DNA from: Rhizobium sp. SEMIA4064
GTDB taxonomy: Bacteria; Pseudomonadota; Alphaproteobacteria; Rhizobiales; Rhizobiaceae
Direction of reading: 5' to 3'
Assembly: GCF_003025035.1 (NCBI RefSeq)
Contig: NZ_PYJN01000016.1
Coordinates: forward strand, 124,001-188,000
DNA: 64,000 nt
The notes beneath the pieces are model-generated. The model made no database searches. It saw nothing but the letters and a program-made list of their open reading frames with translations, and had not been told where the DNA came from. Positions 58,900 through 62,515 of this stretch are shown in pieces (within the stretch, counting starts at the first letter, position 1; each line of letters begins with the position of its first letter). Position numbers and translations under genes: made by a program.

Positions 58900-59661
58900 T
58901 CAGTTCCTTAACCGATATCCCGTTTTGAAAATCCACCCGAGGGTCGCCAGGCAGATCAAGAGGAAAAACGTGATCATCGCAAGGCTCAGCACCGGGTTGA
59001 CGTCGGCGATGCCAAAGAAGCTCCAACGGAAACCACTGACGAGATAAAGAACAGGATTGAGGTGACTGACGGCCTGCCAGAAGGGCGGCAGCATGTTGAT
59101 GGAATAGAAGCTGCCGCCAAGGAAGGTCAGCGGCGGCACGACCAGCATGGGAATAAGGTTGAGCTGCTCGAAATTCCCCGCCCAAATGCCGATCATGAAG
59201 CCGAACAGGCTGAAGGTCACCGCCGTCAGCACGAAGAACAGGATCATCATGAATGGATGTTCGATGGTGATGTGCACAAAGAAGTTCGCCGTCAGCAGGA
59301 TGATCAGCCCGATCAGCATCCCCTTGGTCGCAGCAGCGCCGACGTAGCCAAGAACGATTTCCGTCATGGCGACGGGTGCGGAAAGAACCTCGTAGATCGT
59401 GCCGGTGAACTTCGGGAAATAGATGCCGAAGGAACCGTTGCTGATGCACTGGCTAAGCAGCGTCAGCATGATCAGGCCCGGTGTGATGAAAGCCCCGTAG
59501 GATACGCCCTCCACCAGTTGGATGCGCGAGCCGATCGCGGCGCCGAAGACGATGAAATAGAGCGAGGTGGAAATGACCGGCGAGACGACGCTCTGCAGCA
59601 GCGTGCGGCGCGTGCGGGCCATCTCGAACGCATAGATGGATTTGATCGCCTCGAAGTTCAT
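58900..59661 (-). CDS. ABC-2 type exporter permease
   Basis: A 253-residue permease with six helices of the ABC-2 (YadH/NodJ-like) type: N-terminal [19 protein letters not shown], then [15 protein letters not shown], and the terminal [21 protein letters not shown]. It exports a small hydrophobic or saccharide substrate that the sequence does not reveal. It starts at ATGA overlapping the ATPase stop. Confidence 0.92.
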
Positions 59662-60584
59662 TTGTCTTCTCCCACCAGCGATACGAAGATGTCTTCGAGC
59701 GAGCTCTGCCGCGTCGACAGGTCTTTGAAATGAATACCCGCGGCCGCCAGACGCGACAGCAAGGCGGCAATGCTCGACTGCTCGTGTTCGGCATCGTAGT
59801 CGTAGATCAACGTCGTGCCATTCGGCCCCAGCGACAGGCCATTGCCATCGAGATGATGCGGAACGGCATCCAGTGGCTGCAAGAGATCGAGGATGAGCTG
59901 TTTGCGGCCGAGCTTGGCCATCAAGGCCTTCTTCTCTTCCACCAACAGTAGCTTGCCGCCATTGATGACGCCGACACGGTCGGCGATCTCCTCGGCTTCC
60001 TCGATGTAATGCGTCGTCAGGATGATGGTGACGCCGGAAGCCCGCAGCCGCTCGACGACGTGCCACATATCTTTGCGCAGCGTCACATCGACGCCCGCCG
60101 TCGGCTCGTCCAGGAAAAGGATCTCGGGCTCGTGCGACAGCGCCTTGGCGATCAGGACGCGCCGCTTCATGCCTCCGGAGAGCTGACGCAGCATATTGTC
60201 TCTCTTATCCCAGAGCGACAGGTCACGCAGCACCTGCTCGATATGCGCGGGATTCGGTTTCTTGCCGTGCAGGCCGCGTGAAAAGCTGACTGTGTTCCAC
60301 ACGGTTTCGAACTGATCGGTCGTCAGCTCCTGCGGCACAAGGCCGATCATGGTGCGCGTGGCGCGGAACTCCTTGACGACATCGTGACCGCCGACGGTCA
60401 CCGTGCCGCCGCTCGGATTGGTGATTCCGCAGACAATGGAGATCATCGTCGTCTTGCCCGCGCCATTCGGCCCGAGCAGCGCCAGAATCTCGCCTTTCTC
60501 GACGTCGAGATCAACGCCCTTCAGTGCCTGAAACCCATTAGAATAGGTTTTGGTAAGATTACGGATGGAAATGATCGGGGCCAT
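59658..60584 (-). CDS. ABC exporter ATP-binding protein
   Basis: A 308-residue ATPase partner of the ABC-2 permease. Walker A is [13 protein letters not shown] (about 37-49), signature [16 protein letters not shown], Walker [14 protein letters not shown], and the switch His in [14 protein letters not shown]. The accessory C-terminal segment (about 215-308) is typical of the CcmA/DrrA/YadG branch. It is the first gene of the two-gene operon. Confidence 0.94.
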
Positions 60585-60856
60585 GATGGAGGCGAAGTCC
60601 GGCTTTTCTGGTTAGTTTTGCGGCGTTTGCCCGCTATATAGCCGTGTCTGAGGCTTTTATCACCCAGCCGAAATGAAACACTGTGTTCGCCCAAAGGAAA
60701 GAACCAGACAACAGGCTGTCATTAAACCGTGACCTTCCTCGGGCATATCTTCCCTAGGTGAGCAACGACTGTCGCACTCCGCCCAACGCCTCTTGGCGAC
60801 AGCGTCGGCGCCGATGATATTTGCAGATTGATTGCCTTAGCATTCATATTGCATGC

Positions 60857-60951
60857 GCCATTGCGACATAGAATTCTTTTTCTGGAGCCAGCAAAGATCC
60901 CCTGTCGTTGCTGTGCGCCACTCCAGCCGGCCCTGCGCCGGCTTTTCTTTT
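60857..60951 (+). ncRNA. candidate small RNA with its own promoter and terminator
   Basis: TTGCAG (60821-60826) and CATATT (60845-60850) give a plausible promoter with an 18-bp spacer. About 95 bp later comes a strong terminator (60925-60951). No open frame with a ribosome binding site lies between, so a short RNA is the simplest reading. The start is approximate. I do not recognise it as a known rhizobial sRNA family. Confidence 0.4.
60925..60951 (+). terminator. orphan rho-independent terminator
   Basis: Stem AGCCGGC/GCCGGCT (60925-60931 with 60937-60943, 5-nt loop) followed by TTTTCTTTT on the plus strand. No plus-strand gene ends here: the neighbours at 60584 and 60989 are both on the minus strand. 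Confidence 0.75.
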
Positions 60952-60966
60952 GCCGGCGATCGATCC

Positions 60967-60997
60967 CCAACTACCAGGCGCCCACCAACTACCAGGC
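60967..60997. repeat. 18-bp tandem duplication over a stop codon
   Basis: CCAACTACCAGGC occurs at 60967-60979 and 60985-60997 (18-bp period). On the minus strand the second copy encodes Ala-Trp-stop of the small membrane protein, and the first repeats those codons just beyond the stop. Confidence 0.8.
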
Positions 60998-61243
60998 ACC
61001 GTTGACGCCGCAGCCTGCCGGCGGCAGGGTCTTGTTTTCGAAGCGCGCCTTCAACATCTCGCAGCCCTTTTCACGTATCGGGCCTGGCATCATCGAGTTA
61101 AGGCCGATGCCGACCTCATCGAACGGATCGTTGGCATAGGCAACATAGGCATACCAGCGCCCGCCGATGACAAGAACGATCGCAATGAGAGCGGCGACCA
61201 AGGCCTTCCCCAGGCCTCTCTTCCTTCTCGGCGCTTCTTCCAT
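60989..61243 (-). CDS. small single-pass membrane protein, unknown function
   Basis: An 84-residue protein: a basic N-terminus (EEAPRRKRGLGKAL), one membrane helix (about 13-33, VAALIAIVLVIGG), and a short periplasmic tail with two cysteines (KGCEMLKARFENKTLPPAGC) that could form a disulfide. I do not recognise a family. ATG 61243 follows GGGGAG; an in-frame GTG at 61270 is the alternative start. Its stop codon lies within the 18-bp duplication. Confidence 0.68.
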   Translation of the reverse strand: MEEAPRRKRGLGKALVAALIAIVLVIGGRWYAYVAYANDPFDEVGIGLNSMMPGPIREKGCEMLKARFENKTLPPAGCGVNGAW

Positions 61244-61361
61244 AAACAACTCCCCCACTTTGGCTGGCACGGTTATAGGGAACTACAAGAATGCAGGTAA
61301 ATGCAACTTCTTGCCCACAGGATTCCGCAGTGAGCCATTGCGATTTTTCTCGCAACGCTCC

Positions 61362-61805
61362 TCAAGCGCTTTTTGATTTTTTCTGAGAGCGGGCCGGACG
61401 AGCGGCACGCGCCGCCGTATTCAGTGCCACCGCCGCGCGAATGAGTGCCTTCAATGCCTCTTCATCGATCTTGTCGCCCTCGTGGAAATCGATGGCACGC
61501 CTAGTATTGCCTTCCATGCTGGAGTTGAAAAGGCCTGATGGGTCCTCCAACGAGGCGCCCTTAGCGAAGGTCATCTTCACGACATTCTTGTAGGTCTCGC
61601 CGGTGCAGATGATTCCATCATGCGACCATACCGGGACCCCTCTCCACTTCCACTCCTCGACCACTTCGGGGTCCGCTTGCTGAATGAGAGTTCGGACCCG
61701 AGCGAGCGTTTCGCCCCGCCAATCACTCAGCTCCTTGATTCTTCCATCTATCAGAAGAGAGGGAGAGTCCTCTGCCGTTCCTTCCTTCGGATCACTCTTC
61801 GCCAT
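61362..61805 (-). CDS. DUF1801 domain protein
   Basis: A 147-residue protein of the DUF1801 (YdhG/frataxin-like fold) family: LIQQADPEVVEEWKWRGVP, VWSHDGIICTGETYKNVVKM, LFNSSMEGNTRRAIDFHEGD and DEEALKALI. A basic Lys/Arg/Ser tail follows. Function is unknown. A second member lies 75 bp upstream on the same strand, suggesting an old duplication, although the two are clearly diverged. Confidence 0.87.
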   Translation of the reverse strand: MAKSDPKEGTAEDSPSLLIDGRIKELSDWRGETLARVRTLIQQADPEVVEEWKWRGVPVWSHDGIICTGETYKNVVKMTFAKGASLEDPSGLFNSSMEGNTRRAIDFHEGDKIDEEALKALIRAAVALNTAARAARPARSQKKSKSA

Positions 61806-61880: not shown

Positions 61881-62348
61881 TCACATTCGTTCGCCGGATA
61901 ATTGGCTGGCTTGCTTTATCCAGGCAGCAAGCTGAGCTTCGTCAAGCTGATCGCCCTCGTGGATGTTGAGATAGCGCGTGTCGTTGCTCTTGGAATCGCC
62001 GGGAGGGACGGGAGCGAGCGACGTGCCACGGAAGAAGGCAACTTTAATGTATTTCGTGAAGCAATGGATACCGAGGAACCAGCCTTGGCCTTCCATCCCA
62101 TAGAGCGGCGAGTTCCATTTGACCGCCTTCTGCACACCCGGAACGGTGCGCTCGATGAGCGCATCGAGACGGCGGCCGACGTCGCTTTTCCAGTCCGGCA
62201 TGGCGGCAATATAGGCCTGTACGGGGGCGTCACCCTCACCCTTAGCGATCTGCGGATTGCCACCTGCAAGAAGAGTGGCGCCAGCGTTGCTCGGCTTGGC
62301 CGTCTTCTCCGCGACTTTCTTTGACCTGATGGACGTCTTCTCAGTCAT
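61881..62348 (-). CDS. DUF1801 domain protein
   Basis: A 155-residue DUF1801 protein with a basic 35-residue N-terminal extension (SIRSKKVAEKTAKPSNAG) and the family blocks YIAAMPDWKSDVGRRLDALI, AVKWNSPLYGMEGQGWFLG, FTKYIKVAFFRG and YLNIHEGDQLDEAQLAAWI. Function is unknown. ATG 62348 is chosen because GGAGTG lies 9 nt upstream; GTG 62357 is in frame. It is a tandem neighbour of the DUF1801 gene at 61362. Confidence 0.87.
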   Translation of the reverse strand: MTEKTSIRSKKVAEKTAKPSNAGATLLAGGNPQIAKGEGDAPVQAYIAAMPDWKSDVGRRLDALIERTVPGVQKAVKWNSPLYGMEGQGWFLGIHCFTKYIKVAFFRGTSLAPVPPGDSKSNDTRYLNIHEGDQLDEAQLAAWIKQASQLSGERM

Positions 62349-62515
62349 TGCGTTCACTCCATCGATAGACGGACAACTATCAAGATTGCTTGATTTTGTA
62401 ACGGCGACCTGCTCGGCGTAGTGGCAAACACGCTCGAGATAACAGCTTCTGCGACAACTAGCCTCCCAACCAACGCATTGCCACTATTTGCAGTTCCCGC
62501 AAGGTAAGATCTGCA

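Follow-up and report, generated by a model that had tools for sequence, protein, structure and literature searches.

We describe a predicted gene for a small RNA (sRNA) in the window, by which we mean the whole 64-kb stretch of Rhizobium DNA analysed here. On comparative sequence evidence, positions 60716-60951 are an independent gene, predicted to yield a non-coding RNA of ~195 nt, with a promoter-like box, a structured body and a terminator, and with no conserved reading frame. We put the probability at about 0.9 that Rhizobium and some sister genera share a real family of sRNA genes here, one that has no Rfam entry. A sequence-only reading of the same DNA had proposed an orphan promoter-terminator unit and candidate sRNA at this place; the candidate is now well supported by comparative evidence, whereas the promoter and the ~95-nt length proposed for it are not.

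The locus and its terminator

The gene lies in a gap with the following neighbours and signals:

60585-60988, gap of 404 bp, flanked by two minus-strand open reading frames (ORFs)
59658-60584, minus strand, divergent neighbour, ATPase of an ABC transporter (ABC_tran, PF00005), the anchor for synteny
60989-61270, minus strand, convergent neighbour, ORF of 93 aa without a Pfam match at E 0.001
60716-60733, plus strand, promoter box CTGTCATTAAACCGTGAC, a Pho-box-like direct repeat or, alternatively, a GTCA-N8-TGAC inverted repeat
60744-60749, plus strand, predicted -10 element CATATC, 10 bp beyond the box
60756-60951, plus strand, predicted small RNA of ~195 nt, with the start placed ~7 nt past the -10 element
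60925-60951, plus strand, intrinsic terminator conserved in relatives, with stem 60925-60943 (AGCCGGCCCTGCGCCGGCT) and tail 60944-60951 (TTTCTTTT)

The orphan plus-strand terminator is as the sequence-only reading had described it, a hairpin and tail in a gap between two minus-strand ORFs. Its hairpin (60925-60943) heads a list of seven terminator-like sites in 4 kb, where shuffled sequence gives 3.3 +/- 1.6. The 3' part of the unit in the window (60855-60951) folds with a z-score of -2.7, a stability equalled in 4 of 200 shuffles, and 17 of the 27 terminator columns are invariant among 18 clade-A rows.

A stretch with 90% identity to the terminator is found elsewhere on the same contig (L029 1501-1531, G000:C8:72180-72210). 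Because the GCCGGC hairpin is reused, terminator similarity alone is not proof of homology. That stretch, together with the fact that the hairpin faces a minus-strand gene, favours a reading in which the hairpin merely stops stray plus-strand transcription between convergent genes and no functional RNA is made. This we consider very unlikely, since 130-200 bp upstream of the hairpin there are a conserved box with a constant -10 spacing, stems that covary and a loop that hardly varies, and the unit is kept when DNA is inserted beside it.

Several other features of the neighbourhood were recorded. The 93-aa ORF adjoins the sRNA in clade A and is also found beside the ATPase in sRNA-less gaps (L049, L051, L052, L053, L069 and L070). 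Two adjacent minus-strand genes, at 61362-61805 and 61881-62357, each code for a DUF1801 protein and are possibly an old duplication. A near-palindrome at 60676-60688 (AACACTGTGTT; GAACA-N3-[TC][AG]TTC in relatives), placed between the sRNA box and the start of the ATPase gene, is kept across the aligned same-genus genomes, sRNA-less ones included, and is a likely operator of the ABC exporter. The stretch 60634-60641 (CTATATAG) is kept with small changes across the same aligned genomes and likely serves as the minus-strand -10 element of the divergent ABC exporter operon.

A conserved promoter-like box upstream of the predicted RNA

The sequence-only reading had placed the promoter at a TTGCAG/CATATT pair. 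Both hexamers are present (60821-60826 and 60845-60850, with a spacer of 18 bp), but they agree with only 7 of 12 sigma-70 consensus positions by manual count, and a promoter scan with a 9-of-12 threshold reported no promoter-like site, against 1.5 expected by chance. In clade A, 10 of 30 columns are invariant over this stretch (60822-60851), compared with 14 of 18 at the upstream box. We therefore rejected the pair for its weak match and poorer conservation. Conservation, covariation and the covariance model instead put the promoter ~105 bp further upstream and lengthen the RNA from ~95 to ~195 nt.

The 14 invariant columns of the box, counted over 18 clade-A rows, stand out from the spacer ahead of it (60680-60714), where 7 of 35 columns are invariant in the same rows. 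We also examined two alignments of 26 rows each, with 3 rows in common, for which the terminator rather than the box had served to select the rows. Both show GTCAT and GTGA unchanged throughout, and the T preceding GTCAT is present in all rows but one. Beyond the box, the first [CG]ATA starts at a distance of 10 bp in 47 of 48 sequences, and the remaining sequence has none within 16 bp. The pattern TGTCATN6GTGA occurs 69 times in the 1,097,330 strand-bases of the best 80 named loci, once per locus in 69 loci; 67 of these sites are within ~1.1 kb upstream of the ATPase, and the other two, at the corresponding position, belong to L096 and L152, which are truncated loci. The unit thus has a conserved promoter signal of its own, box and -10 element together, as is looked for in an independent intergenic sRNA.

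Structure and non-coding character of the RNA

The predicted RNA contains the following elements:

60757-60812, plus strand, 5' domain, closing helix GGUG 60757-60760 / CGCC 60809-60812 enclosing stem-loop 1
60769-60802, plus strand, stem-loop 1, CUGUCGC 60769-60775 paired with GCGACAG 60796-60802
60776-60795, plus strand, loop of stem-loop 1, C/U-rich, candidate pairing (seed) region
60884-60919, plus strand, stem-loop 3, paired in 98.2% of cells (14 clade-A sequences)

Over 60756-60807, within the 5' domain, 37 of 52 columns are invariant in the 18 clade-A rows. The clade-A fold comprises the closing helix, stem-loop 1, stem-loop 3 and the terminator; the fold of clades B and C has the same elements plus a stem-loop 2 between stem-loops 1 and 3. 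MAFFT misregistered the right arms of stem-loop 1 between clades, and models were therefore built clade by clade.

The stem of stem-loop 1 covaries between clades. In an alignment of 34 sequences (A6), 91.4% of cells are paired and 13 of 17 pairs show two-sided changes, counts that are biased towards the model structure, as A6 was fitted to a covariance model. None of 500 shuffles reaches the observed values, and slid versions of the structure are 36-53% paired. Support within clade A alone is thinner: two-sided changes are seen in 4 of 32 pairs, a number matched by 4 of 500 shuffles, and further pair types are no more numerous than in shuffles. One pair of stem-loop 3 is A-U in seven and G-C in six of the 14 clade-A sequences. 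The conserved secondary structure that marks an sRNA is thus present, with the proviso that A6 leans towards its model.

No conserved reading frame was found: the ORFs listed for 12 of the 48 sequences that carry the unit differ, and gaps are out of frame. Gap lengths are divisible by three in 1 of 34 cases in clade A (14 sequences) and in 8 of 111 in clades B and C (21 sequences), counted pairwise against the first row and so not as independent events. We rejected a coding reading on the grounds that gaps ignore the frame and ORFs vary among members. A short peptide, or a dual-function RNA, would be suggested by a GTG-started ORF of 19 codons at the 5' end, which occurs in four of the six clade-A members listed (L031, L032, L034 and L036). 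The frame and length differ, however, in the other two (L041 and L044), even the L036 peptide differs, the ORF is absent from six listed members of other clades, and 33 of the 34 gaps in clade A have a length not divisible by three, so that we regard this possibility as very remote.

A search of the window and eight related loci with Rfam 15 gave no match at the gathering thresholds, scores otherwise being far below the cut-offs. Membership of known Rfam sRNA families (AbcR, SuhB-like and others) was rejected, as no gathering score was reached.

Conservation in Rhizobium

We examined 60 genomes of the genus, counting the window's own, and all have the ATPase orthologue. A hairpin not conserved in related genomes had been named beforehand by the sequence-only reading among the outcomes that would refute it, and synteny with the ABC exporter had been named as a check. 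Both came out in favour of the candidate. In 48 of the 60 genomes, counted by pattern detection of both box and terminator, a box TGTCAT...GTGA is followed 220-235 bp on by a GCCGGC-type terminator, upstream of the ATPase and on the opposite strand, so that the plus-strand hairpin recurs at the syntenic place.

Three further same-genus genomes keep the unit. In G012 and G058, intervening DNA separates it from the ATPase start by ~1 kb, and its terminator is present; to judge from these two loci, the unit persists when DNA is inserted between it and the ATPase. In G030 (locus L045), the terminator is present and the box differs at a single base, and this copy was matched by covariance model R1 (described below) with E 0.0039 on chosen loci, although R1 missed it genome-wide at E 0.1. 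The remaining nine genomes (G015, G022, G028, G032, G037, G038, G043, G049 and G057) have a shortened gap without the unit, and R1 did not find it elsewhere in them in a genome-wide search.

Among the best 80 named loci, 62 have the box and the terminator within 300 bp, including those of R. leucaenae, R. tropici, R. lusitanum, R. leguminosarum and R. johnstonii 3841. In R. johnstonii 3841, the stretch from box to terminator is at about 2945608-2945831 of NC_008380, on the plus strand. Another five loci have a box but no match to the terminator, and in 13 the 700 bp searched contain no box. Box-like sequence remains at four loci in which a complete unit was not found (L052, L070, L138 and L143); L052 also has a terminator-like remnant, and all four are apparent relics of the unit.

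In the 48 genomes the box stands 118-265 bp from the start codon of the ATPase, a position that would suit a regulatory region of the divergent ABC exporter, in which case the conserved block would not be an RNA gene at all. We think this most unlikely. A separate conserved CTATATA region (60634-60641) belongs to the ATPase and is kept in the nine sRNA-less genomes; the covariation and the terminator require an RNA reading; and in two genomes the unit is whole at a distance of ~1 kb.

Covariance models and other genera

A blastn search of 199 family genomes at E 1e-8 matched only the window's own genome, and covariance models were therefore built. A search of a plasmid collection found no homologues. 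Model R1 was made from 21 sequences of clades B and C and holds no sequence of clade A, the window's clade, while model R2 was built from clade A, which makes its match in the window's own genome a matter of construction.

Searched against the 64-kb window at E up to 1, R1 gave a single match, at 60716-60842 (E 2.1e-4). At E 0.01 over the 199 family genomes, which represent 109 genera, it matched six: three of Rhizobium, G275 (genus g146), and G145 and G237 (both g87). In the last three the match is directly upstream of the ATPase orthologue, and a terminator is present. Under the stricter filters of this search, R1 missed the copy in the window's own genome (G000), so its misses mean little. 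R2 matched the own genome, G275 and G237 over the same 199 genomes and missed the other three Rhizobium genomes. On 41 chosen loci, R1 matched 34, among them all the clade-A loci given, and found nothing in L240, L251 and five unit-less loci.

A box and terminator are present at 6 of 26 ATPase loci from other genera (L234, L240, L242, L245, L251 and L259). These six span five genera (g146, g143, g87, g115 and g94), and at L240 the two signals are only ~130 bp apart. The other 20 loci are without the unit; among them is, for each of g146, g143 and g94, the locus of a second genome that was examined.

A candidate pairing loop

A most-conserved stretch that lies in an unpaired loop is the usual sign of a pairing seed. 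Here, 14 of 15 columns are invariant in clade A over 60780-60794, in the unpaired loop of stem-loop 1, making it the top 15-base bin of the gap. The loop is rich in C and U (CUCCGCCCAACGCCUCUUG in the window's clade; CCGCCGCCCA..CCUUU in other clades). The sequence-only reading had noted the lack of CCUCCC-type loops, which is literally true, but the 5' hairpin beyond the interval it considered carries this conserved C/U-rich loop.

With such a composition, purine-rich ribosome-binding regions would be the natural targets. Tested against the canonical Shine-Dalgarno sequence, the loop was equalled by 52, 350, 318 and 481 of 500 shuffles for clade A, clade C, clade B and g87, respectively. Canonical anti-Shine-Dalgarno pairing did not rise above composition shuffles, and the variants that scored better had been picked with the loops already in view. 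A search with a 16-base seed in 15 genomes gave 95 places beyond the 15 sRNA copies, against 105 for a reversed control, and the seven recurrent places that were checked are all inside ORFs.

Candidate regulators of the box

The accessible part of PMC2573895 gives as the criterion of a rhizobial Pho box CTGTCATN4CTGTCAT with at most four mismatches. The window box agrees at 11 of 14 positions, with three mismatches, and so falls within this definition. Of the 48 sRNA boxes, 33 have three mismatches, 13 have four and 2 have five. In 12 genomes, the regions ahead of pst genes have best matches of 10-13 of 14. The phnC upstream regions reach 9-11 of 14, about the level that chance gives in regions this large, and the phnC promoters were set aside as uninformative controls.

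We also built a matrix from the boxes of pst promoters in 12 same-genus genomes, 21 boxes that are orthologous and so not independent. Its scores for its own control boxes are 20.1-31.0 for 20 of the 21 and 7.0 for one. The window box scores 14.1, a value reached by 11 of 1,094,449 positions in a background that includes the sRNA sites. For the 48 sRNA boxes the median is 6.4 (92 positions score as high) and the minimum is -1.8 (829 of 1,094,449). The second half of the box (CCGTGAC or CGGTGAT) has a fixed G at a position occupied by C, A or T in the listed pst boxes. PhoB is uncertain as the regulator because this fixed G departs from the pst boxes and because the matrix scores fall in other clades.

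In PhoB promoters such as that of E. coli phoA, the box lies 10 bp from the -10 element and there is no -35 element. The 10-bp spacing and absent -35 element predicted here fit a PhoB-type activator. We give PhoB itself a little less than an even chance of being the regulator.

A real possibility, though one short of probable, is that the sRNA gene is the same but its box is bound by a dimeric regulator other than PhoB through GTCA-N8-TGAC, the RNA answering another signal. The GTGA second half, unlike that of pst boxes, is identical in the two alignments that were not selected by the box, and a perfect GTGTCA-N8-TGACAC is seen in two loci without a terminator match, L138 and L143. The zero-mismatch 17-base form is, moreover, restricted to the sRNA site in five genomes: no other zero-mismatch site was found in them, and their two-mismatch sites include none that recurs at one sequence between genomes. 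The inverted repeat is broken, however, in most clade B and C boxes (TGTCA..TGATA), and TT almost always occupies positions 20-21, directly past the second half, in keeping with the A/T-rich spacer that OmpR-family sites should have. A repressor would also make little sense at a box that ends 10 bp from a -10 element and has no -35 element.

Relation to known systems

PhoB-activated pst promoters have an 11-bp period, ~10 bp to the -10 element and no -35 consensus. The predicted sRNA promoter shares all of these and the TGTCAT half-site; it differs from them in a second half (CCGTGAC/CGGTGAT) that departs from the same-genus pst boxes and in that the product is an RNA. Putative PhoB sites have been reported at predicted S. 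meliloti sRNAs, sm14, sm25 and sm30 among them (PMC2573895, accessible part), which, as described, resemble the present unit in being orphan units with a PhoB-like box found in silico.

The AbcR1 and AbcR2 sRNAs of Rhizobiaceae have an unpaired C/U-rich motif proposed to pair at ribosome-binding sites (PMC7143759). As far as the available text describes them, they are similar in being intergenic and in having this motif in an unpaired region. They are 120 and 114 nt long, compared with the ~195 nt predicted here, and are encoded at the SMc01226-lsrB locus rather than beside an ABC ATPase; our unit has no Rfam match, and its motif is non-canonical (CCUCUU / CCCCUUU). The SmelA075/SmelA099 family, which has CCUCCUCCC loops according to the consulted portion of PMC3927594, is similar in that a C-rich hairpin loop is more conserved than its own stem, but it has three or four such loops where the present RNA has one. 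Membership of that family was rejected, as CCUCCUCCC occurs in none of the 48 units.

Among the papers listed in a literature search, none was recognised as a description of this RNA, and nothing on the locus was found in the available part of PMC8829014. The RNA may already figure in a transcript table for R. etli or R. leguminosarum, for instance under a ReC name among the 89 R. etli ncRNAs of PMC2881028.

Proposed mechanism and significance

In the mechanism that we propose, RNA polymerase would start near 60756 with the help of an activator bound at the box, help that is suggested because no -35 consensus is present. The activator would most likely be PhoB or another OmpR-family regulator. 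The RNA would act in trans: the loop of stem-loop 1 would pair with mRNAs at their purine-rich ribosome-binding regions and reduce translation of those mRNAs. We regard this mechanism, taken whole as a trans-acting sRNA with a seed loop and an activator-dependent promoter most likely served by PhoB or a relative, as fairly probable.

The most specific version is a tentative and rather doubtful one: a PhoB-activated family of trans-acting sRNAs in Rhizobium and several sister genera, whose C-rich loop would repress a set of mRNAs under phosphate scarcity, and which would have been overlooked with surveys centred on Sinorhizobium meliloti and Agrobacterium.

As a new sRNA family, the finding is ordinary in kind, and its interest is in the possible phosphate control. 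It provides a precise sRNA gene in rhizobia that are crop symbionts, with a predicted promoter, ends, structure and candidate pairing loop, and the nine unit-less same-genus genomes offer natural comparisons. If PhoB binds the box, phosphate status would be linked to post-transcriptional control in Rhizobium, and the sRNA, if indeed activated by PhoB, would be an RNA arm of the phosphate-starvation response.
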